Assembly (NCBI GenBank): GCA_011033025.1
Contig: WFMF01000194.1
Location: 248,001 to 312,000 of the forward strand
DNA length: 64,000 nt
Direction of reading: 5' to 3'
Origin: Beroe forskalii
Lineage: Eukaryota; Ctenophora; Nuda; Beroida; Beroidae
Below the pieces are notes generated by a model. The model had not been told where the DNA came from. It made no database searches and saw only the letters and a list, made by a program, of their open reading frames with translations. The position numbers were made by a program, and so were the translations under genes. Shown one piece after another: positions 20,180 to 62,810 of the stretch (position 1 is its first letter; each line of letters starts with the position of its first letter).

Positions 20180-20400
20180 TAGCCCAGGTGTAACGCCGCG
20201 CTACGCCCACGTGTAGTGCCGCGCTACACCCAGGTGTAACGCCGCGCTACGCCCACGTGTAGTGCCGCGCTACACCCAGGTGTAACGCCGCGCTACACCC
20301 ACGTGTAGTGCCGCGCTACACCCACGTGTAACGCCGCGCTACGCCCACGTGTAGTGCCGCGCTACACCCACGTGTAGTGCCGCGCTACACCTGGATGTTA
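20180..20400. repeat. GC-rich hairpin array, 23-bp monomer
   Basis: About ten monomers alternate between CCAGGTGTAACGCCGCGCTA and CCACGTGTAGTGCCGCGCTA types. Each can fold as GTGTAG...CTACAC around a GCCGCG centre, and many carry CACGTG. The tract is far richer in G and C than its surroundings. Confidence 0.88.
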
Positions 20401-38663: not shown

Positions 38664-40307
38664 TTATAAGTCATTTGTTTGATGCCCTTCGCTTAGTCCT
38701 GAGTTTCCCCGCAACATGACAACATTTATCACTCCAATGTCATTTGCGACACAACACACCCCATCTGCATCAGCCACCACAGCAGCGATGTGTCTGCTGC
38801 TCGCATCCCCAGTATCGCTCCCCAGGAGGGAGGTTGAGGAGGGGAACTGGCGGGTGGTGACAGGCCGAGGCAGTGCCTCGTGGTACAGCACGAGGGAGTT
38901 GTCCTCGCTCCCGCACAATATGTACTCCTCGGCCAGGGTCTCCAGCCCAATGAACTTGGTGGAGTTGCTGTGTCCGTGGTAGGTCCTCTCGCACTGCCCT
39001 GTGTCCTGACTCCACTGCTTGAGAGTACCGTCCACTGAACCTGAGACCAGTGCCTTGCTCGACAGGTAGCTCAGCTGGAAGACAGACTTGGAGTGTCCTG
39101 CTAGAGTGGAGACGGGTCTGTCAGGCTTCCTCAGGTCGTAGCAGTATATCATCCGATCCACTGAGGAGACTGCCAGGTGGAAGGGAGACAGAGGTCGGCA
39201 GGACAAAGTGAAGAGCTTCTCGGGGGCTCTGATATCCAGAACACTGCCTCGCTGGTTGAGATGCCACACCTTGATGTTAGCGTCAAAGCCAGCTGAGACC
39301 AGCTGCTGGGCCTTGGTGGGGGTGAACTTCACTGTGAGGTACATGGTGGCGGTGTGTCCTTGGAAGGAAGCAGTGGACACCCCGGCTGTGACATCCCACA
39401 ACTTGATGTCTGAGTTGTGATCAGCAACTGCCAGAAGGTTTTGTGAGCAGGGATTCCACGAGGTGGACCAGGCAGGGCTCCCAGTCTTAAGCTTGGAGAT
39501 AGGATAGAGGACGGGCAAGGGACTGTCTTCCAGCATCTTGTAGTTGTATAAGTTGACTGTGTCTAGGCTTGCAGCCACGGACAAGGTGTTCGTGTGACTC
39601 ACTGCCAAATCGTGAATGTAGGAAGGTTCCACGTTTGAGCCAGTAACAGAAAAGCTTCCTAAAACATCGACTGAATCGTATTTAAATGCATCGTATATCA
39701 GCTTCCCAATGTTTTTATACTTACGTCCAGATGAGAAGAAGTGGTTTTCGAGGTCATGAAAATTTTTGAGGATATTGGCGTAATTATCTGAAATGTTTTC
39801 AAGGGAAATGGTGTCAAAAGGATCTGCTTTCATCTTCTTCTTAGATGGTTCACCAGCACTGTCGTCTGGATCATTTGGTGATCTTACAGGGCCATCAAAA
39901 GAGTTAAGTTCAGCTCTTACGATGGCCAACTCAGACTTAAGTTTCTTTATCTTTTCCAACTTTTGGTTTTTGCTTTCCACTAAAAACTCGAGTGCCATCT
40001 TCTGGACTTCACGCTCCTTTGAAACAAGGAGTTTTTCTCTTTTCAACTGGAGCTCAGCAATCTTAAGGTCTAAATCAGCAAGAGTATCTTGAGAACCTGA
40101 AAGCTCCTGGAAGGGCTCTGCTGTTTTGCTGCAAAGGGGGCAGAGGGGAGATAGTTTGAGGGATGATTGGGTGCAGTCCCTGCAGAAGACGTGAAGACAA
40201 GCTAGCTGAACAGGATGGCAATGAGGCTCCACCAAACAGATGCCACATTGCCCAGAACTGTGGGGTGTGAAGAGGGAGGAGGTGCTAGAACTGGCATGGT
40301 GTGTCAT
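38664..40307 (-). CDS. COP1: COP1-type E3 ubiquitin ligase (RING, coiled coil, WD40)
   Basis: A 547-residue intronless reading frame. COP1 ligases ubiquitinate transcription factors such as c-Jun and ETS proteins in the nucleus and cytoplasm, often with Tribbles or DET1 partners. A C3HC4 RING occupies residues 21-59 (C21, C24, C37, H39, C42, C45, C56, C59). A long coiled coil rich in Lys and Glu runs from about 75 to 136, and a basic patch SKKKMK lies near 155. Seven-bladed WD40 sequence fills about 225-545, with NSDIKLWDV, ANIKVWHL, GHSKSVFQLS and the COP1 signature ILCGSEDNSLVLYHEAL. It is shorter than human COP1 (731) mainly because the Ser/Gly-rich N-terminus before the RING is missing. 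An in-frame TAA 30 bases upstream supports this start. Lack of introns contrasts with the other genes here and suggests a retrocopy, but the frame is intact. Confidence 0.95.
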   Translation of the reverse strand: MTHHASSSTSSLFTPHSSGQCGICLVEPHCHPVQLACLHVFCRDCTQSSLKLSPLCPLCSKTAEPFQELSGSQDTLADLDLKIAELQLKREKLLVSKEREVQKMALEFLVESKNQKLEKIKKLKSELAIVRAELNSFDGPVRSPNDPDDSAGEPSKKKMKADPFDTISLENISDNYANILKNFHDLENHFFSSGRKYKNIGKLIYDAFKYDSVDVLGSFSVTGSNVEPSYIHDLAVSHTNTLSVAASLDTVNLYNYKMLEDSPLPVLYPISKLKTGSPAWSTSWNPCSQNLLAVADHNSDIKLWDVTAGVSTASFQGHTATMYLTVKFTPTKAQQLVSAGFDANIKVWHLNQRGSVLDIRAPEKLFTLSCRPLSPFHLAVSSVDRMIYCYDLRKPDRPVSTLAGHSKSVFQLSYLSSKALVSGSVDGTLKQWSQDTGQCERTYHGHSNSTKFIGLETLAEEYILCGSEDNSLVLYHEALPRPVTTRQFPSSTSLLGSDTGDASSRHIAAVVADADGVCCVANDIGVINVVMLRGNSGLSEGHQTNDL

Positions 40308-41186
40308 CGGGACTACCTCAAGGAAGTAATGATGTTAGTTAAGATGCCGCCAGAGTTTAAAATACCTGCACTAGCAAGCAAAACAATAAATATTTTTCTC
40401 AAATCAGTGAGAGGAAATAAAGCCCCCGCCTCATCACACAGATTTTTGAGAGAGTAGGGACCCCTCCTATTTATTTTTAAGCAGGAACTCTTGGCAATAT
40501 AAATTCAAAGTTGTAGACATTTAATTCTCACTGACACCTGATTATAATCAATCAAATCAAATCATTCATGTGTCAACAAAACATAGAGATACAGAATATA
40601 TATGGTTACCAAAGTACGTGCCCAGACGTGCCCTTAGCATCGAGAAAGAAAAGGATGCTCCAGACCTAAAAAATTCTTTTCGATGATTTGCTCTCTTATC
40701 TTGGCGAACAGCTAATAAGCAAATAGGGTAACTGTATTGGAGCCCACTAAGTCACTGCACTTTGGAACATGGCCTAATAAGGCCCTCCCACTGTGCACTC
40801 AGCAGCCTGCCTTGACAGCTGCTGGTCTAATAAATATGCTCATTTCGGGGCAAGGTACGTCCAATAAAAGCAATAATTTTGCTGATTTTCATGAAATATA
40901 ATGTAACCTTGACAACTATATGAATATCTATGACTGGTATTTTTGAATCAAATTATAGTTCCGTGAATTTGAATATGGAGTTTCTTTTCTCAAATTATCA
41001 ATTTTAACTTTTGCCGTAATACTGTAATAGCATGTTAGCACATGTCCGTTTATCTCAGTCCTAGCTGGTTTCATGGCCCCCGGTATGTAAACATGGAGAT
41101 CCACGGAGGGTGGTCGGTGGACAGCTCACGCCTGCAGACCTGAACTGGTATTCTACCAGATTCAGTATGATATGAGACCAGTTTTG
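40308..41186. other. COP1 upstream region
   Basis: This contains the presumed COP1 promoter on the minus strand. No recognisable TATA box position or other gene. Confidence 0.35.
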
Positions 41187-41188
41187 TA

Positions 41189-44100
41189 CTCCAGTAGCTG
41201 AGGGCTGTGCAGTGTACTTTTCATTCTCCACGCAGTTTCTCAACGGTTTTCGTTAGTTTGAAGCATAATAAAGAAATCCTAGGAGGTAACATTATGTGAA
41301 TCGACGTCCTGGGGGGTCGTAGGGCCACGCCCATTTTTGCTCTCAGGCGGTAATATGAGGCCTGATTATTTCGACTTCTGATGGTCATAGAGACTTCAGA
41401 ATTGATTCAGGATGTCTATCTCATCGAGGGGAACAACTTTTTCTCTGACAACTTTTTTGTCAGATGATTAGTTAATTGGCCAATTAGCTAATTGGGTAAT
41501 TTTCAAAAATTCGAAAAAACTTTTTTGGCTTAAAATGATCAGAATTGCATAAAACGTGGAAAAAAGTGGGTTTTAAGAATATTTTGAAAAATTTTTCACT
41601 TAGAAAATTTTCTGGACTTGGAAAAATTTTGAGCGAAAAAATTGAAATTTTCATTTTTTGGGTCCTTAAATCTTTGTCCAACAATGTTTGGCTACTCGAA
41701 GGCACTGTTATTGCTTTTCACTGTTCTGACAGAATATTTTAACAGAAACTACTGAAAGTGGGCTCTCTTCAAAACTGGTTTCAGAGCCAGGATCACCACT
41801 GTTGACAAGCAGCTGACAACCACTTATTGAATTGTGACGAATCCAACCATGGTGCTCAGTGAGCTGCCTCCACCGTCTACATGCAGAAGAAGGAGCTGAA
41901 GTGGAAAACTGACACAACTGAACTCCCCAAATGAGCATATTGCTGCTGATGCCTCCACCTGAAGCCATGTTCTGCTTCTCCTCTTCCCTTGCTACGCAAC
42001 TTGGATTATAGCCAGATGGACCCACCAAGCTGCCCTGCAAGGAGAACCCCTGTTCTTGCCGGGACTTGGAACGCCCATCATCCTTATTACGAACTCTATC
42101 TCTCACAACAACTAGTGTCTCCTGATGTTGGATTCCGGTCACACTGAACTGAAACCAATGCTTCTGCCATGGTGGACAGGGACTACAAGCGCAATCGATG
42201 GATCATGCAAGTCACACGACCTCTACAGTCTACAAGCACCTATTCACCATCCATGGCTACTTCCCAGACGAATTGGCGAATTGCCTTTTCTTCTTCTATG
42301 GACTCCTCACTCCGTCCTGGCAAGACCACAACCCTCTTCAAGCAACTCTTTGGGGAAGTTGACACCTGGTGACCCTCGCAACCCTCTTCCATCCTCCTGT
42401 ACTACAAGCTGACAATCTACAATGCTGTGGCCTCTACAAACAGCTATTCAGTATTCACCATCCATGACATCTTCCCAGACGAATTCTTCCATGCAAGTAT
42501 GGACTCGTCACTCCGTCCTCGCAGGACCACAAGCAACTCTTTTGGGAAGTTGACACCTGGTGACCCTTGCAACCCTCCTCCATCCTCCTGTACTACGAGC
42601 TTTGCCCTAACCATGGCCCTGGTTACGCGCACGGAGTGCGCGGCGCAGCAAGTGACACCTCTGGTTAGGGGAACTACGAGCTGATAATCTACAATGCTTT
42701 GGCCTTCTACCACAAGGAGTTGCTACTTCCTCTTTAAGCATCCCCCTTCAAGCAATATCCGCCGAGCAGAACTTCTGGATGAGTAGGTACCTGCAGATTG
42801 AGAACTCACCAAGGAGAGCCTCAGCACTTCGCCAAGATTGGACTTTTTCTTCGTTCTAGTGAGTGATGCTGAGTGTGGAGGACACTCAAGCACCCTCTTC
42901 CTGTATATATGGCTGCTTTCACCTCCCCAAATAAGCACAGTACTGCGAGACCATGGCCACTGGCCATGGTATCGATAATTGACAGCAAATGGCTGGCTAT
43001 TGGGTAGTTGCCGATCCTACATTAAGCTTTGATAACGTGCCGTTATAAGTAGTGCATTCATACATGATACAACAACAAAATCTGTTGAAATTGCTAGTGT
43101 CATCAATATCGAGCTGCCTTTTTGCGTACAAAGCAGCTATGGGAGATGAATCCCAAAAAACCAAGCCCCACTCTACTTTTCCGATTCTTGGGCAAGGCTT
43201 CTTTTCTTTTTGTTCTTTTGGCTTCAGCTATAGTGAATTGATCAATTCAAACTAATTTTATCATTCATCTTTTGCCGAATAGTCGCCACTCTTAGATTGG
43301 CAGATCAGCAGTGTTCTGTCACTGGGGTCTGCTGATTCCAAATTTGGCTGAAGATAAGTGGTGTGTGAGAGGTTCCAATCTAGATAGACTCAAAGTAGGA
43401 GGTTAGCGCAGCCATGTTTGCAGAGAGAAAGGGCATGGGCGTTCTTCACACTCAGCATCACCCAATTAGAACGAAGGAAATAACCCCAATCTTGGTGAAG
43501 TCTTGAGCCCTCATTTGTGAGTTCTCAATCTAGTACCTACTCATCCAGAAGTTCTGCTCGGCAGATATTGCTTGAAGGTGATAGAAGGCCACAGCATTGT
43601 AGATTGTCAGCTCGTAGTACAGGAGGATGGAGGAGGGTTGCAAGGGTCACCAGGTGTCAACTTCCCAAAAGAGTTGCTAATTGTGGTCCTGCGAGGACGG
43701 AAGGACGAGTCCATAGAATGGAAGAAAAGATGTCAATGTTTGTAGAGGCTGGCATTGTAGATTGTCAGCTTGTAGTACAGGAGGATGGAGGAGGGTTGCG
43801 AGGGTCACCAAGTGTCAACTTCCCCAAAGAGTTGCTTGAAGAGGGTTGTGGTCTTGCCAGGACGGAGTGAGGAGTCCATAGAAGAAGAAAAGGCAATTCG
43901 TCAATTCGTCTGGGAAGTAGCCATGGATGGTGAATAGGTGCTTGTAGACTGTAGAGGTCGTGTGACTTGCATGATCCATCGATTGCGCTTGTAGTCCCTG
44001 TCCACCATGGCAGAAGCATTGGTTTCAGTTCAGTGTGACCGGAATCCAACATCAGGAGACACTAGTTGTTGTGAGAGATAGAGTTCGTAATAAGGATGAT

Positions 44101-44989
44101 GGGCGTTCCAAGTCCCGGCAAGAACAGGGGTTCTTCTTGCAGGGCAGCTTGGTGGGTCCATCTGGCTATAATCCAAGTTGCGTAGCAAGGGAAGAGGAGA
44201 AGCAGAACATGGCTTCAGGTGGAGGCATCAGCAGCAATATGCTCATTTGGGGAGTTCAGTTGTGTCAGTTTTCCACTTCAGCTCCTTCTTCTGCATGTAG
44301 ACGGTGGAGGCAGCTCACTGAGCACCATGGTTGGATTCGTCACAATTCAATAAGTGGTTGTCAGCTGCTTGTCAACAGTGGTGATCCTGGCTCTGAAACC
44401 AGTTTTGAAGAGAGCCCACTTTCAGTAGTTTCTGTTAAAATATTCTGTCAGAACAGTGAAAAGCAATAACAGTGCCTTCGAGTAGCCAAACATTGTTGGA
44501 CAAAAATTTAAGGACCCAAAAAATGAAAATTTCAATTTTTTCGCTCAAAATTTTTCCAAGTCCAAAAAATTTTCTAAGTGAAAAATTTTTCAAAATATTC
44601 TTGAAAACCACTTTTTTCCACGTTTCATGCAATTTTGATCATTTTAAGCCAAAAAAAGTTTTTTCGAATTTTTGAAAATTACCCAATTAGCTAATTGGCC
44701 AATTAACTAATCATCTGACAAAAAAGTTGTCAGATAAAAAGTTGTTCCCCTCGATGAGATAGACATCCTGAATCAATTCTGAAGTCTCTATGACCATCAG
44801 AAGTCGAAATAATCAGGCCTCATATTACCGCCTGAGAGCAAAAATGGGCGTGGCCCTACGACCCCCCAGGACGTCGATTCACATAATGTTACCTCCTAGG
44901 ATTTCTTTATTATGCTTCAAACTAACGAAAACCGTTGAGAAACTGCGTTGAGAATGAAAAGTACACTGCAGAGCCCTCAGCTACTGGAG
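41189..44989. mobile_element. 3.8-kb foldback element with 1.6-kb arms
   Basis: Ends CTCCAGTAGCTGAGGGC and reverse complement are flanked by TA (41187-41188 and 44990-44991). The two arms (41189 to about 42890, and about 43450 to 44989) are near-identical inverted copies around a spacer of roughly 560 bp. Each arm encloses a 144-codon frame, 41708-42142 on the minus strand and 44035-44469 on the plus strand. The two products are almost identical and have no family I recognise. Inside each arm a block of about 200 bp containing TTGACACCTGGTGACCCT and ATCCTCCTGTACTAC is duplicated. A 10-bp-stem hairpin ACCATGGCCA-C-TGGCCATGGT lies at 42950-42970. No transposase is seen. Confidence 0.9.
42601..42672. 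mobile_element. 72-bp insertion with CCCTAACC inverted ends, left arm only
   Basis: The sequence begins TTTGCCCTAACCA and ends GGTTAGGGGA, giving an inverted CCCTAACC/GGTTAGGG pair. It is flanked by a 9-bp direct duplication ACTACGAGC (42592-42600 and 42673-42681). The other arm of the palindrome has ACTACGAGC once at the matching place (about 43607-43615, reverse strand). The insertion therefore came after the arms were formed. A 9-bp duplication is typical of Mutator-like and some related transposases (inference). Confidence 0.8.
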
Positions 44990-50473: not shown

Positions 50474-51133
50474 TGCACGCACTGTGGGAGGGAGTTGCAC
50501 GCCTCTCAAAGTGAGCAGAGTATGACCTTAGGAGGTATATATTTTATGGAGGTTGTAATTTGGTAATTTTTCGGTAAAATCCCCATTTTTTCACACACCA
50601 TGATGTTGTTAAAAATGACGACATTATCATATGTTAACAAGAGTAATGACTTCAGAAAGATCCCCAAATTGCAACCGTTCAAATTTGTTAACACCAAAAT
50701 GTTACTCCACATAAATACACCTCCTAAGGTAGTTATTGTTATAATGCTCGACAGATTGTGGTACAGTGGTTCAGTAGTTACGTTTTAATCGGACCATTAA
50801 AGGAGTAGGTTATAAATTTGGTTTGCTGGTTATTAGAGCTCCAGACTCCAGAGTATTGGAGCCCGTCTTTTCATCTCACGACATTTGACATCTAACCCAG
50901 ACCCTAACCTTTTGCTAGAAGTGAAATATCACGAGGTCACTAGTGTCGTCATCAGTCAGGTGAATTGTACATTGAAAAGTCCATTTTTCGTTAAATTGCG
51001 CGAATGCGCAGATAATAAAGTGTGATTGCTCGTGTAAAATAAATTAGCGGATTTTCACAATTAATCTAGATATTTCTCAAGTTAAATGGTGTCTTGTGAT
51101 TGCGACTCAGTTAATCTTGTGAATTATTCTTAT
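50474..51133. other. Unassigned sequence
   Basis: No gene recognised. Confidence 0.3.
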
Positions 51134-51993
51134 TACTAGCAGGCCCGTTGGGCCTGCTAAAACGTAGCTCACTCGGCGGGGCTACGCCCCGCCTCCCTCG
51201 CAAAATTCCAAAATTGCAATTCAAGTTATCAAAACAATTTTTCTATTCTTACCGCATTGAAGAATTGAAACAATTAATACATTCACGCCAGCTGCAAATT
51301 TTGAAATATGAAAAAGTTTATGAAGGAGCACAATTTACAATAATCCGTTTGTCACTTTCAGTAATGCTGTCCCATGAAGGCCAGTTTTGTCTAATTGCAA
51401 TTGTATGACGAAGTTAATTTAAATGCAATCTGAGAACCGTGCATGCATACTGAACGTTGAATTGCGCATTGATTTACGCCAAGATTCCCTAATTCGCAAT
51501 AATATATGCCATGCCCAATTTGCTCAATTTTATTTTGCCGTGGTTAATCTTAAATTTCTTTCAATAATTGCTCGATTAACATTATTTAGTTGCAACCATT
51601 TTAATCATCGATTTAATAAATTGACCGACCATCGCCACTGATTCATAAAGGGAATTCTATCGCCTATAGCCTCCCCGATGCCAGCCATACCCATTCACTA
51701 TCTTTTAGACCTTCAATTTTAAATGTAGAAGACGTAAGATTTACAAAAACCAAGACACAGCAGTTAGCAACGTATCAGAAAGCACTCGCATACAACTGAT
51801 CATAACTTGCACGTGCAGTTTCCAGTAACCATAACAACGGCACCAATAAGCACATTTTCCCCGTTCGTTTCTCTTGATAAGTTGATATTCTCTTGGCAAG
51901 CTCAAATTTAAACTGTGCGCCCGCACAGACAAACATAATTCACGTGCTCTTACGAAATTATATATAAGACTAGAAGGCCCGTTGGGCCTTCTA
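51134..51993. repeat. Long member of the paired-hairpin repeat family
   Basis: It begins with hairpin A, TAGCAGGCCC-GTT-GGGCCTGCTA (51137-51159), and hairpin B, GGCGGGGC-TAC-GCCCCGCC (51175-51193). It ends with GAAATTATATATAAGACTAG and a second hairpin A, TAGAAGGCCC-GTT-GGGCCTTCTA (51971-51993). The interior has two short open frames without recognisable domains. It is a diverged, longer relative of the 300-bp units at 52673-54835. Confidence 0.75.
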
Positions 51994-52280
51994 GGTCACA
52001 GGAAAAAGGCATATCATAAGCATTAAGCAATTCAGCAAAGTGTAATGATTTGTGGTCATGTCACTGACTCACGGAACATGAATCAAATCGAATTCAGAAA
52101 TCATCAATATCCAATGGCAAATTGAATGAGTTGAGTATAGAGTAATTCAGTGATAAACAATCAATACAACTTCACAATGTGAATCCATGGCCAAAAGTTG
52201 AATTCAATGCTCTACGTGCAAAATCTTCCATTCGACTAAAGTGCGCGTGATTAGGTATTGCTAATTCTTTGGAGTACATC

Positions 52281-52361
52281 GCCGTTATGGCCGAGTGGTC
52301 TAAGGTAATGAGATCAAGCGCGGTAATTGTGAGTTCAAATCAGTGCCGGGAAGACTTTTTT
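52281..52361 (+). ncRNA. tRNA-Leu-like Pol III pseudogene or SINE head
   Basis: The A box TGGCCGAGTGGTCTAAGG and the B box GAGTTCAAATC are spaced as in a tRNA, and a TTTTTT terminator follows at about 52356-52361. The D arm matches Leu-type tRNAs. The acceptor, anticodon and T stems do not pair and there is no variable arm, so this is not a working tRNA. A tRNA-derived SINE or tRNA pseudogene is most likely. Confidence 0.6.
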
Positions 52362-52672
52362 ACTTAGTGACAAATTTTACAATTTTGCCTCTGCTTCATG
52401 AAAAAAGTCATTCTGACTTGAAATTTCATCATAAAAGTCCGTCTGATGCTGCTTAAAGCCTTTCACAAATACATCAGTAGAAATTCTAATCTGGTGACCA
52501 AAAAATTAGACAAATACGACACAAATAACGGACATCTTAACATAAGACTTTAACCAACCAGTTTTGCAATAAAATTCAGTTGGCTACTGTAGCCACTACA
52601 AGTTTTAATGCCACTGGGTCAGCAAGCCTCTGAAAACACAATTTATAAAAAATCACAGATGTCTACTTCAAA

Positions 52673-53421
52673 GCTCACTCGGCGCTGCTACGCAGCACCT
52701 CGTTCGCAAATTTCAAAAACCACAATTCAAATCTACCAAGTACATGAAAAAATTTTACCGCATCAAAAAACTCCGATCCGTTCAAAAGTTATTAGAGATC
52801 GCGCAACGTAATCAAAACACCATTAACAGAAATGAGCGCGCGCGCAATTCTCCGTGCACGTGTCACCATGGTAACCCGCACAAATCGTAATGCGCGCGCG
52901 TTCCGAAGATGTTTCCGCCGTTACGTACAAACAAAAAACAGAGGTTGCGAAATTATATAAGAGACTAGCAGGCCCGTTGGGCCCGCAAATACACAGCTCA
53001 CTCGGCGCTGCTACGCAGCACCTCGTTCGCAAATTTCAAATTCACCAAATACTTCTTACCGCATCAAAAAACTCCGATCCGTTCAAAAGTTATTAGAGAT
53101 CGCGCAACGTAATCAAAACACCATTAACAGAAATGAGCGCGCGCGCAATTCTCCGTGCAAGTGTCACCATGGTTACCCGCACAAATCGTAATGCGCGCGC
53201 GTTCCGAAGATGTTTCCGCCGTTACGTACAAACAGAAAAACAGAGGTTGCGAAATTATATTAGAGACTAGAATGCCCGTTGGGCCTGCTAATACACAGCT
53301 CACTCGGCGCTGCTACGCAGCACCTCGTTCGCAAATATCAGATCAACTAAAAAATTTTTACCGCATCAAAAAACTCTGATCCGTTCAAAAGTTACGAAGC
53401 AACGTAATCAAAACACCATTA
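52673..53421. repeat. Tandem 300-bp units with paired hairpins, units 1 to 3a
   Basis: Unit 1 (52673-52995) and unit 2 (52996-53297) are near-identical. Unit 3 starts at 53298 and is interrupted at 53421 by a transposon. Each holds hairpin B, GGCGCTGC-TAC-GCAGCACC, an AT-rich half, then AACGTAATCAAAACACCATT, ATGAGCGCGCGCGCAATTCT, CACCATGGTWACCCGCACA and AATGCGCGCGCGTTCCGAAG. They close with GAAATTATATAAGAGACTAG and hairpin A. Apparent short reading frames are shared only because the DNA is duplicated. Confidence 0.9.
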
Positions 53422-54688
53422 CAGGTACATGACCCTCAGATTAGTGGTGGTTTTTCAAATTCCCATAAATGCCTCATTTCTGTTTGATATAGTCCAAAAA
53501 TGATAAATATCTATAGAAAAAATACCAAACATTTCTTCCCCATGATTGAACTGACATAAATTTGAAAATTTGACATGATAATTTTTGCCTGAAAATCAGG
53601 GTCATTTTCTTTATGACCCTCAGATTGATGGTCAACAAATTCATGATAATTTTCATGAATTTGGGTTCTTACATGTCAAAACAATCAAAAACACATTTTA
53701 AACATACAAGAGACAAGCCAATGAAAAAATTATTAAAGTATCATCAACAAAATGTGTAGAGAAATTGAATTTAAATATTTTGAGACCCTCAGAATGATGG
53801 TTGCAATAATATATTAGTGCATAAAACTCATTATATTTACATTTCACTCATAGAATTTCACAATCAACTAGGTTTCATTGATTTTTACTTAACAAAATAG
53901 TTAGTTGAGGCAAAATGTATAAGAATTCATGGTAATATCAAAATTTCCCACCATCAATGTGAGGGTCTACATTTTTTCTGACATCATTTCAGGCCTAATT
54001 CGCCCTGATTAACGTTTTTCCTGCCATTTAATTGTATTTTCATACTTAATTTTTAGTGCAGTGCCTTTTATTCAACTGAAAGAAAGATGAATTTTAACCA
54101 CCAATCTGAGGGTCATTGAACCATCAATCTGAGGGTCATATGTCCATATTTTGAAAGATAATGTTTTCCTAAAATTTATGAATTTAAGTTGAAATTACTA
54201 CTCAAATTGTAACACGTGGTAGCTAATGTCACTGTGATAGTTTATTACTATTCATGTGCCTCTAGTGCATTCACAATAACCATCGACTACCATCAATCTG
54301 AGGGTCATGAATACCGTCAATTTGAGGGTCAAGTCTCAAAATTATGCAAAAAATCCAAAATTTGAACAGTACAATTGTACAACTGTAACAATTTGTAAGA
54401 AACCAACAATCAACATGCTTCTGGAAAAGTTTTTCAAGTTAAATTCAAAATTGAGTTTACCAGGGGAAATTTGAGTTTCTGCAATGCTATTTCATGACAC
54501 TTGTTTTGTATAGAAATTTCGTAACATCGATCACCATGGAAAAATACTTCAATGAAGTCAAGTATACCCATCAAGAAATTACATAAAAAACAATTGGAGT
54601 CTAGAATAACATTGAATTTCAATCTGATCGCCTTCAAACCCAAACCACTAATCTGAGGGCCACCATCAATCTGAGGGTCATGTACCTG
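53422..54688. mobile_element. TA-flanked element with repeated internal CTCAGATTGATGGT motifs
   Basis: Inverted ends CAGGTACATGACCCTCAGAT then TAGTGGTGG (31 bp with TA) are flanked by TA (53420-53421 and 54689-54690). The empty site AACACCATTAACAGAAATG is present in both uninterrupted neighbours, so the 1267-bp insertion and its TA duplication are certain. Ten or more copies of ACCATCAATCTGAGGGTCA are spread inside. Those in the left half point one way and those in the right half the other, converging near the centre. No transposase. Confidence 0.93.
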
Positions 54689-54835
54689 TAACAGAAATGA
54701 GCGCGCGCGCAATTCTCCGTGCACGTGTCACCATGGTTACCCGCACATATCGTAATGCGCGCGCGTTCCGAAGATGTTTCCGCCGTTACGACAAACAAAA
54801 AAACAGAGGTTGCGAAATTATATAAGAGATTACAT
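54689..54835. repeat. Remainder of the interrupted third 300-bp unit
   Basis: It resumes exactly where unit 3 stopped at 53421 and runs through the GCGCGCGCGC, CCATGG and GAAATTATATAAGAGATT segments. Confidence 0.88.
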
Positions 54836-54894
54836 TTTGCCTCATGTTGCTAAATTTATATTAAATAAAAACTGCTTTCAGGGGTGCTAAAAGC

Positions 54895-55008
54895 CCACTC
54901 TCTCAAGTCCATTAATAAAGCATAAAATATGTTTACATAATGAACATAAAGCAGAAAGCCATGCTCTCTCAAGTCCATTAATAAAGCATAAAATATGTTT
55001 ACATAATG
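54895..55008. repeat. CTCTCTCAAGTCCATTAATA direct duplication
   Basis: A block of about 45 bp (CTCAAGTCCATTAATAAAGC then ATAAAATATGTTTACATAAT) occurs twice, about 68 bp apart, just before the hAT insertion. Confidence 0.8.
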
Positions 55009-55020
55009 GGGTGTTCTAAG

Positions 55021-55945
55021 TAGGGTTTCCAATATCGGTAGCAATTTTTTAACGGCGATAATCGATAACTTTTTGTGAATTATCGGCGATACCGATAATT
55101 AACGGCGATAAATTTACTACAGTTTTAGACATCAATTTATTTAAATTTCCTCAATTTATGAATTCGCAAACATTAATTCAGCCACTTTGCTGCGTATGGT
55201 GGTCGGCGAGCTGTGCGCTAGGAACTTCTTTTCCCTAATAGCATCCTTAATAAAACTGGTCGTTGCTATCTGGTTGAAAGATAATTTGTCAACAGCTGCA
55301 AGGGCAGCATGAATTTCTTGGCATTTTTTCTCAGCATATGATACGATTAACTTTTGCTGAGTTTTTGGCCGCTTTACTTTAGACTCTGCCGTGTCGGCCT
55401 GTGGACGATCAATACTGTGCTTTGCTTTGAGATGATACCACAAACTAGAATAACTGCTCTTCGAAGTTGTGCCAGATTAAGACTTCGTACACTGTTTGCA
55501 GACCACTTCCTCCCCCTCTTTTGTAAAGAACTGTCTTAATATGCTGTGGCTTGACATGTTAAATACAAATTGAAGTATCAATCAACGGAGACTCGGAGTA
55601 GAACGTGAGTCGAAGGTCGAAAACGCTTGAAAGAGTCCAGAAAAAATTCAAAAATTAAACTAAGCTTAGGCTGGGCATATTTTGTTTTTACATAATAATA
55701 ATAATCATGAGACACATGGTCGTGAAAAATGCTACGAATTTTTATTCAAACTGGCCCGTTGCTTTTGAATAAGTAAAAACCGTGAAATTGACTTGTTCTA
55801 ACTTTATTTGAGTTAAATATAATGGTTTCAAAAACATTAAATTTTATCGGTTTATCGGCACAAATTATCGCCGATAACCGATAATTGATTTTGGTCCAAT
55901 TATCGCCGATAATTTTATCGGCGATATTATCGGTTGGAAACCCTA
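55021..55945 (-). mobile_element. hAT-family element, internally deleted
   Basis: Termini TAGGGTTTCCAA and TTGGAAACCCTA are flanked by the perfect 8-bp duplication GTTCTAAG (55013-55020 and 55946-55953), diagnostic of hAT insertion. Subterminal regions are packed with ATCGGCGATA and TTATCGGC motifs, the usual place for transposase binding sites. Only the N-terminal part of a transposase remains. Confidence 0.92.
55156..55557 (-). pseudogene. hAT transposase N-terminus with BED zinc finger
   Basis: From ATG at 55557 it reads MSSHSILRQFFTKEGEEVVC then KQCTKS, an in-frame TAA, SGTTSKSSYSSLWYHLKAKH and more. C-x2-C followed by H-x4-H is a BED zinc finger, the DNA-binding module of hAT transposases. 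The stop inside the finger and the absence of the catalytic RNase-H-like and dimerisation regions make it a relic. Confidence 0.85.
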
Positions 55946-60112: not shown

Positions 60113-60228
60113 AATCTGTACCCGATACGGAGAGTAGAACGCAGCATGAGCTACATGATCGTGTCACTCCTTTCAGCTTTCCTGGTCTGCTACCTCCCCT
60201 TTACCATCTACATTACCATAACCATCAA
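60113..60228 (+). CDS. Class A GPCR, exon with TM6, end overlaps a minisatellite
   Basis: A CCTTCAG acceptor (AG 60111-60112), phase 0, then NLYPIRRVERSMSYMIVSLL, SAFLVCYLPF and TIYITITI. FLVCYLPF is the CWxP motif of TM6 with Tyr for Trp. Either the frame ends at TAG 60230-60232, or the exon splices at CAA|GTAGGT (60229). The bases ACCATCTACATTACC that encode TIYIT are the first copy of the minisatellite that follows. Intracellular loop 3 is very short. No TM7 exon (NPxxY) was found up to 64000, so it is either further right or lost. Confidence 0.8.
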
Positions 60229-61015
60229 GTAGGTTACCATCTACATTAATATCTATATTACCACCTACATTACCATCTACATTACCATAACCATCAAGTT
60301 GAAGTAGGTTACCATCTACATTAATATCTACATTACCATCTACATTACCATAACCATCAAGTAGGTTACCATCTACATTAATATCTATATTACCACCTAC
60401 ATTCCCATCTACATTACCATAACCATCAAGTAGGTTACGATCTACATTAATATCTACATTACCATCTACATTACCACCTACATTACCATCTACATTACCA
60501 TAACCATCAAGTAGGTTACCATCTACATTAATATCTACATTACCATCTACATTACCATCTACATTACCATAACCATCAAGTAGGTTACCATCTACATTAA
60601 TATCTACATTACCATCTACATTACCATCTACATTACCATCTACATTACCATAACCATCAAGTAGGTTACCATCTTGATGGATTTCTCCCATCCCTAGCGC
60701 GCAACACTCGGAAGTTTGGAGGGTCGTGTTGCATACTCCCCGCGGAAAACCTTGTGCGCGCGGCGGAGGGTAGGGTAAAATCCTACAAGTTACCATCTAC
60801 ATTAATATCTACATTACCATCTACATTACCATCTACATTACCATAACCATCAAGTACTCAAGTAGGTTACCATCTACATTAATATCTACATTACCACCTA
60901 CATTACCATCTATATTACCATAACCATCAAGTAGGTTACCATCTACATTAATATCTATATTACCATCTACATTACCATAACCATCAAGTGGGTTACCATC
61001 TACATTAATATCTAT
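60200..61015. repeat. Minisatellite seeded by the GPCR TM6 exon
   Basis: Units of 33-80 bp are built from ACCATCTACATTACC, ACCATCTACATTAATATCT and ACCATAACCATCAAGTAGGT. A unique stretch of about 100 bp (60675-60785) interrupts the array. Each full unit ends with CAAGTAGGTT, a copy of the presumed exon end plus donor. The long minus-strand frame of Asp-Gly-Asn-Val repeats is an artefact. Confidence 0.92.
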
Positions 61016-62810
61016 ACCACAGACAAAACCGCAAGCGGCTGTCATAGCAACCCCCTCACAGAGTCACAGGGGCGCCGCTTTTTAATTGTAAGAGGTTATT
61101 ATGATCTAATCATACGTTATCAAGCGTCAAACGTAGAAATAATTAGTTGAAATCCTTGAAATAGTGATTTCCCTAATTTCTACAAACCGTCCACGTGAAC
61201 TCACGTGCACTTCATTTCCATCAGCTATTTCTTGTTCTATTCAAGTACCAAGTAAGCTAAAATGTTTTTTCAGTCACTATCGTATAGTACAACAGCCCTG
61301 TACTTATAGAATTCGGCCTGAAATTGGACTTAGCCAAATTTTCGACTTTTTCGCGCGGCTCAAATTTACGTTTTTGAGGGGCCACCACACCTTTCCCTTA
61401 AATCGGGACGACTTGAAACTTTTTACCCTTGATATTGGATTGAGAAAGAACATTGATACGCCTGGAAAAGATGGAGCAATGTTCGTGAGCTGAGATATAG
61501 ATGCTCAAAGTCACCATATTTTGGCATGGTAAGGATCCTCGATTTTTGGAGGCCTCCCACGACCTCATTTTTTCACCAATCACCATGAAACTTCTTTTGT
61601 GGCTAAATCTCGAGGTCTTGATGCTACATAAGTCGGGAAATCATGACGCGGTAGAAGACTTTTCAGATACAGTGCTTCAAAGTGGTCCAAAATTACGTTT
61701 TTCGCTAAAAATCGTGATTTCATCGATTTTGATGACGTCATAACAGCAAGAAAATCGATGCAGTGAGACTTCTTACATAGCCTATGACAATCTCCTATCT
61801 TAGCTGAAAAAAACCTGCCCTCGATCATGTCTGTATCTTTTATGGTTTTCGAGTTTACCCCGCTCCCGTTTTGGTCCTAAAAATCTCACGTCTATATATC
61901 AATAAATAAATAAGTAAACCACAGACAAAACCGCAAGCGGTCGTCATAGCAACCCCCTCACAGAGTCACAGGGGCGCCGCTTTTTTATTATAAGAGGTTA
62001 TCATGATCTAAACATACGTTATTTAGCGTCAAACATAGAAATAATTTGTTAAAATCCTTGAAATAGTGATTTCCCTAATTTCTACAAAACGTCCGCGTGA
62101 ACTCACGTGCACTTCATTTCCATGGGCCATTTCTTGTTCTATTCAAGTACCAAGTAAATCAAAATGTTGATTCAGTCACTATCGTATAGCACAACAGCCC
62201 TGCACTTTTGGAATTCGACCTGAAATTGGACTTGGCCAAATTTTCGACTTTTTTGCGCGGCTCAAATTTACGTTTTTGAGGGGCCACCACACCTTTCCCT
62301 TAAATCGGGAAGACTTGAAACTTTTTACCCTTGATATTTGGCTGAGAAAGAACATTGATACGCCTGGAAAAGATGGAGCAATGTTCGTGAGCTGAGATAT
62401 AGATGCTCAAAGTCACCATATTTTGGCCTAGTAAGGATCCTCGATTTTTGGAGGCCTCCCACGACCTCATTTTTTCACCAATCACCATGAAACTTCTTTT
62501 GTGGCTAAAACTCGAGGTCTAGATGCTACATAAGTCGGGAAATCATGACGCGGTAGAAAACTTTTCAGATACAGTGCTTTGAAGTGGTCCAAAATTACGT
62601 TTTTCGCTAAAAATCGTGATTTCATCGATTTTGATGACGTCATCACACCAATAAAATCGATCCAGTGAGACTTCCTGGATAGCCTATAACATTTTCCCAT
62701 CTTAGCTGAAAAAAACACGCCCTCGATCAAGGCTCTACCATTTGTGGTTCTCGAGTTTTCATCGTTACCAATTGGGTCCTAAAATTATCACGTCTATAAA
62801 TAAGTATATA
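61016..62810. repeat. 0.9-kb tandem duplication
   Basis: Two copies, 61016-61917 and 61918-62810, are clearly homologous throughout with scattered differences. Each opens with ACCACAGACAAAACCGCAAG then CGG and CATAGCAACCCCCTCACA, and includes GGGGCGCCGCTTTTT, ATGTTCGTGAGCTGAGATAT and GATGACGTCAT. The opening bases resemble the inverted repeat of the MITE at 62811, so the unit may be a related element that lost an end. No gene. Confidence 0.9.

Follow-up and report, generated by a model that had tools for sequence, protein, structure and literature searches.

A probable head-to-tail run of four non-autonomous Helitrons in the ctenophore Beroe forskalii, with 3' hairpins whose stems differ between families in compensating pairs

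Introduction

In Helraiser, which is a Helitron (a rolling-circle transposon), the hairpin near the 3' end has been termed a terminator or stop signal (PMC4778049). In that study, exchanging the stem left about 90% of the activity, and changing the loop (along with one adjacent pair) brought the activity as low as deleting the hairpin did. Here we consider a locus with 3' hairpins from Beroe forskalii (Ctenophora; assembly GCA_011033025.1, contig WFMF01000194.1, forward strand 248,001-312,000). We refer to this entire stretch of 64,000 nucleotides as the window, and all coordinates are positions within it. A sequence-only reading had described a repeat family at 51134-54835 with two hairpins, A and B, whose stems change while pairing is kept. 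We argue that positions 51136-54829 are very probably, judging from sequence, a head-to-tail run of four non-autonomous Helitrons on the minus strand.

Results

The run and its ends

The four elements, which we call Y, Z, X2, and X3, follow each other on the minus strand with CTAG|TC junctions, and the composite has a host A on one side and a host T on the other. Its outer ends agree with those of the sequence-only reading within 6 bases. Each element has TC at its start and a hairpin at or almost at its terminal CTAG, so the canonical Helitron ends are present (5' TC and 3' CTAG, of the CTRR class). The parts, as we read them, are as follows.

51136-51969, minus strand: Helitron Y, 834 bp, non-autonomous
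51136-51139: CTAG at the 3' end of Y, then T on the minus strand
51137-51159, minus strand: hairpin A of Y, 10-bp stem and 3-nt loop, 1 nt from the 3' end
51175-51193, minus strand: hairpin B of Y, 8-bp stem GGCGGGGC/GCCCCGCC, loop TAC (plus strand)
51969: 5' end of Y, which starts here with TCTTATATATAATTTCG
51970-52964, minus strand: Helitron Z, 995 bp
52681-52699, minus strand: hairpin B inside Z, GGCGCTGC-TAC-GCAGCACC (plus strand), about 700 bp from the 3' end
52965-53266, minus strand: Helitron X2, 302 bp, complete
52968-52986: hairpin A of X2
53004-53022: hairpin B of X2
53267-54829, minus strand: Helitron X3, about 294 bp of element, interrupted by an insert that resembles a miniature inverted-repeat transposable element (MITE); its hairpin A is partly decayed
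53306-53324, minus strand: hairpin B of X3
54829: 5' end of X3, with T next on the plus strand

Other copies in the genome have the same borders. In isolated copies, sequence likeness begins at CTAG, and the base after the 3' end on the element strand is T in 71 of 71 of them (that is, a plus-strand A before CTAG). The plus-strand A also precedes CTAG in 108 of 108 tandem copies; these counts exclude 22 readings of full palindromes on the opposite strand. At the other end, T lies beyond the element in 26 of the 29 5' ends that have no adjoining element, and one of the three exceptions is a mis-registered tandem. Among the loci that we analysed there are 23 rows of full-length Y at 87-100% identity, which represent 22 distinct copies (L061 is the window's own copy, and L056 and L057 overlap). 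Z has end-to-end matches at L004, L047, and L030 (89-94%).

One Y copy, at locus L077, sits within another repeat, and this allowed us to look for sites that lack the element. We joined its flanks into a query of 160 bases and scored 40 of 534 candidates. The joined flanks gave 41 matches, of which 15 span at least 155 of the 160 bases, with up to 99% identity; the filled site itself matches as two separate halves. We compared one of these 15 empty sites (in L093, 93%) with L077 base by base: it reads as a plain A|T, with no target duplication in this pairing of one Y copy and one site. Insertion between A and T without target duplication and the TC and CTAG ends are what is found in canonical Helitrons. 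So these elements are a known kind of mobile DNA, and a well-formed new member of it.

We found no protein in the four elements, as the sequence-only reading had also said, among the open reading frames of at least 150 amino acids listed for the window. ARAGORN found no tRNA. In the part of Z that is not X-like, there is a degenerate tRNA-like stretch (52281-52360, GGCCGAGTGGTCTAAGG...) with a run of T behind it, which ARAGORN did not call. The insert in X3 (53422-54688) is flanked by TA and has inverted ends CAGGTACATGACCC, with GACCCTCAGATTGATGGT-like motifs in both orientations inside.

Two hairpins

Hairpin A is the 3'-terminal hairpin: the distance between its stem and the end is 0 nt in Z, 1 nt in Y, and 3 nt in X2. 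It is present, with its TAG, at 51137 and 51971, just where the sequence-only reading had placed it. Hairpin B lies just inside hairpin A in X and Y. Its first copy is indeed at 51175, while the second starts at 52681 rather than at 52673. This second form was said to be mostly paired, and on the plus strand it has 7 standard pairs out of 8, with C.A as the remaining one, which reads G.T on the minus strand.

When the 80-nt 3' ends were folded as DNA and compared to shuffled sequences, the z scores were -4.6, -4.6, -2.7, and -0.7, so three of the four ends fold above chance. A score of -4.6 belongs to the Y end, and -0.7 to the X3 end, where the breakage of hairpin A that had been noticed at 53268 is real. 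The core of hairpin A, GGCCCGTTGGGCC, has 1636 exact occurrences in the 216-Mb genome, versus 1 for a reversed control. The loop of hairpin B, which had been called unchanged, is TAC in 149 of 160 copies.

Families keep the pairing and single copies lose it

To follow hairpin B, we located these 160 copies by anchors outside the stem. Pair 3 is T-A in 126 copies, G-C in 28, and C-G in 5, and pair 4 is C-G in 125 and G-C in 30. We also searched the genome with a pattern that left two positions free in each arm and held the rest fixed (copies altered in the fixed part are missed). There were 1014 matches: 976 of them have one of three fully complementary arm pairs (CT/AG in 888, GG/CC in 27, and GC/GC in 61), and 38 have others. 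If stem changes broke pairing as often as they kept it, the proposal of a maintained fold would have failed, and at these two free pairs this is not what we see.

For hairpin A, pair 7 is C-G in 144 of 185 copies, A-T in 12, and not Watson-Crick in 29. The reported change from C-G to A-T with pairing kept holds up as one double change between families, a single event that separates the group of X and Y from Z. The covariation evidence is stronger for hairpin B than for hairpin A. Because the copies are clonal, independent double changes are few in either case (about three in hairpin B and one in hairpin A).

Pairs 1, 2, 5, 7, and 8 of hairpin B tell us about individual copies. In the 160 copies, these pairs have 40 one-sided changes and no double changes; 8 of the one-sided changes give G.T on the element strand, 17 give A.C, and 15 give something else. 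These are the decay of single resident copies, while the families keep the fold. As resident copies decay, selection, if there is any, would therefore act on source elements during transposition. This alters the original proposal of one repeat family whose copies are maintained by selection for the fold. Pairing is kept while the stem letters differ between families, so that part stands. The versions come from separate Helitron families (Y, Z, and X), and the 40 one-sided changes speak against maintenance of the copies.

Which strand folds

On the element strand, 159 of 160 copies have pair 6 of hairpin B paired, versus 38 of 160 on the plus strand; in the commonest hairpin B, C.A at this pair on the plus strand is G.T on the element strand. 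Similarly, the outermost pair of hairpin A is paired in 175 of 185 copies on the element strand, versus 15 of 185 on the other. These asymmetries are family-level states, so the events behind them may number just one or two. A slight lean in the opposite direction (by 1-4 copies) is seen at pairs 2, 5, 7, and 8 of hairpin B and at pairs 4, 8, and 10 of hairpin A. Cruciform DNA, which had been suggested as one form of the fold, is disfavoured because pair 6 of the commonest hairpin B pairs on the element strand only. The fold is best read as one that would form in single-stranded DNA at the 3' end of a Helitron. The large strand differences would also fit RNA of the moving strand.

A candidate RepHel partner

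The genome has 20 matches to PF14214 (Rep). With a 32-nt pattern and at most one mismatch, the Z-type 3' end is found at 174 places in the genome, of which 100 are listed, and what follows concerns these 100. For three of the six strongest Rep matches (at C256, at C244, and on the plus strand of C802), a Z-type 3' end lies on the same strand further downstream, at 3.6, 4.1, and 4.4 kb. The chance of finding Z-type ends within 5 kb this often is about 2e-7 for three of six and about 9e-6 for three of 20. A fourth of these six, the minus-strand Rep match at C802, has a Z-type end 12.9 kb downstream. At C256, the end of the helicase (Pif1 2B domain, 81 bits) and a stop are followed, after about 0.85 kb, by the hairpin end. 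We found no X-type 5' motif (up to 3 changes) in the scanned part of C256 (L093); the Y-type motif was not sought there. By their common 3' end, these RepHel-coding elements appear to be partners of Z.

The Rep at C359 (L091) matches that of Helraiser (7lcc, 329.8 bits) and is not one of the three with a nearby Z-type end; L091 contains a complete X-type unit beyond the helicase frames. In the same RepHel region, between the Rep and helicase parts, we noticed by eye some reverse-transcriptase-like frames (L091 4095-6024, minus strand). In L092, which is 10 kb at the C847 Rep match, there is no hairpin A core within two substitutions.

The composition of Z

Z starts, on its 5' side, as an X element that runs to just beyond hairpin B, with a 90% match between its positions 700-995 and X2. 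There follow some 700 bp of non-X sequence, and the 3' end is a different one, which the RepHel elements have too. So Z lacks the hairpin A of X, keeps hairpin B, and ends about 700 bp further on at another end of the hairpin A type. Z would fit a model of read-through past the original end, with the order of events inferred.

Other features of the window

A 556-amino-acid open frame without a stop (38664-40334, minus strand) has matches to a RING finger and WD40; it may be COP1/RFWD2-like. Two near-identical frames of 164 amino acids (41708-42202, minus strand, and 43975-44469, plus strand) are divergent, like the arms of a long inverted repeat. There are minisatellites at 20183-20391 (a 23-bp CCCACGTGTAGTGCCGCGCTACA array) and at 60201-61016 (a TTACCATCTACA-type array).

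Discussion

Our results suggest the following mechanism. A RepHel protein would nick the 5' end of the element and unwind it as a single strand. Hairpin A would fold in this moving strand and show the point at which transfer stops and the strand is cut, CTAG|T. For the protein, the loop and the existence of a stem may count for more than the letters that form it, and because of this the stems would diverge between families through compensating changes. Copies that do not move again after insertion would decay. Hairpin B, the inner hairpin of X and Y, may obey the same rule and yet be insufficient to end transfer alone, because Z keeps hairpin B and ends about 700 bp further on. Put together, there might be a two-part stop signal: an outer hairpin that holds or touches CTAG, plus an inner hairpin whose pairing is constrained in the mobile strand only. 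We offer this two-part signal tentatively and think it somewhat doubtful.

Several observations weigh against our interpretation of the elements or of their hairpins. Just one pair of hairpin A covaries, and it is the one with 29 non-Watson-Crick copies; also, pair 9 is paired in just 76 of the 185 copies. The strongest Rep match (C359, L091) and the second match at C256 have no same-strand Z-type end downstream among the 100 of 174 places listed. The RepHel elements have their 3' end in common with Z, but with X and Y they have just the hairpin core, and so what drives X and Y is something that we infer. The evidence from empty sites belongs to L077 and not to the window's own copies: the joined flanks of the window's run are single-copy, and there is no empty site for it in the genome. 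Many of the loci were chosen for their likeness to the X and Y units of the window, so our counts are not a random sample. Finally, the hairpin of Helraiser is not strictly required (PMC4778049, PMC5876387), and a study of maize and rice found little to indicate that palindromes at the 3' end are distinctive or necessary (PMC2575219).

Could the hairpins be explained without selection on the fold? The paired changes might be no more than differences that the families acquired long ago, by chance or by gene conversion. The copies are clonal, and three or so double changes in hairpin B and one in hairpin A are not many. But all three forms of hairpin B and both forms of hairpin A are paired, fully complementary arms make up 976 of the 1014 matches, and the TAC loop persists in 149 of 160 copies, so we consider this explanation very unlikely. 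A different idea is that the run is a satellite-like tandem repeat or a structured non-coding RNA, with hairpins that are selected as RNA and with each resident copy being maintained. The 302-bp tandem units would suit a satellite, and strand-specific pairing would also suit a minus-strand RNA. However, the copies are dispersed, with sharp CTAG and TC borders, A|T flanks, and empty sites, and single copies carry uncompensated one-sided changes. Also, no Rfam family reaches its gathering score in the window, and under permissive settings the only Rfam match at 50600-55400 is a weak one (E 1.2) that falls within the MITE-like insert of X3. We view a satellite or a maintained RNA as very improbable.

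It seems extremely improbable that these elements are cruciform-forming MITEs or another DNA transposon with inverted repeats, even though they are short and non-coding and have palindromes near one end. No inverted repeat joins both ends of an element among the pairs listed (25 of 35), the aligned empty site (for one copy) has no target duplication, and the commonest hairpin B is fully paired on one strand only. We rejected transposons with terminal inverted repeats, including MITEs, as there were no such repeats among the pairs listed and no target duplication at the aligned empty site.

If the elements are Helitrons, then what had been a folded repeat becomes a defined Helitron group, with 1636 occurrences of the hairpin core and with RepHel genes in the same genome. 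A paired stem change with a constant loop, here found between natural families, is what the hairpin swaps in Helraiser predict. The strand-specific G.T pair points to a moving single strand. If the stop signal does have two parts, then Z is a natural test of the read-through model within a genome. The number of copies would make it possible to relate the strength of the stem and the inner hairpin to read-through.

Among known systems, the closest are Helraiser (Helibat1) and maize HelA, which belong to Helitron1. They have the same 5' TC and 3' CTAG, insert between A and T without duplication, and have a 3' hairpin; the Rep genes of this genome are PF14214, as in Helitron1, and one of them (L091) matches Helraiser. 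The spacing differs: their hairpins lie about 10-15 nt before the 3' end, and we did not find such spacing here. The palindrome is given as 11 nt from the end in Helraiser (PMC4778049) and as 10-15 bp from the end in maize (PMC2267711), whereas here the stem is 0-3 nt from the end. Unlike Helitron1 as described, X and Y have another hairpin directly inside the first. In the literature that we searched, no Helitron is described, in the portions accessible, with a hairpin that encloses CTAG or with such a double-hairpin end; Repbase and most subscription papers fell outside this search.

Helitron2, Helentrons, and DINE-1 are alike in being of the rolling-circle kind and in having a 3' stem loop. 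Their insertion sites are TT or T-rich, and their inverted repeats are subterminal or asymmetric (PMC5148889, PMC4067079), whereas our elements insert at A|T and have TC and CTAG ends. We ruled these groups out because the 3' ends that were scored, like the empty site, have A|T; also, no subterminal inverted repeat pair of their type appears among the 25 of 35 pairs listed.

In adjacent and tandem Helitrons of maize and bats, CTAG likewise abuts TC, and no host base intervenes (PMC2267711). Unlike those tandems, this run has four members of three families, with a MITE-like insert in one. Z also resembles the chimeric Helitrons with a new 3' end from silkworm and maize and from read-through of Helraiser (PMC4778049 and PMC3789558): it is apparently an X element that lacks hairpin A and has a later 3' end. 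What sets Z apart from them is that hairpin B is still there, and this would tell apart what each hairpin does.
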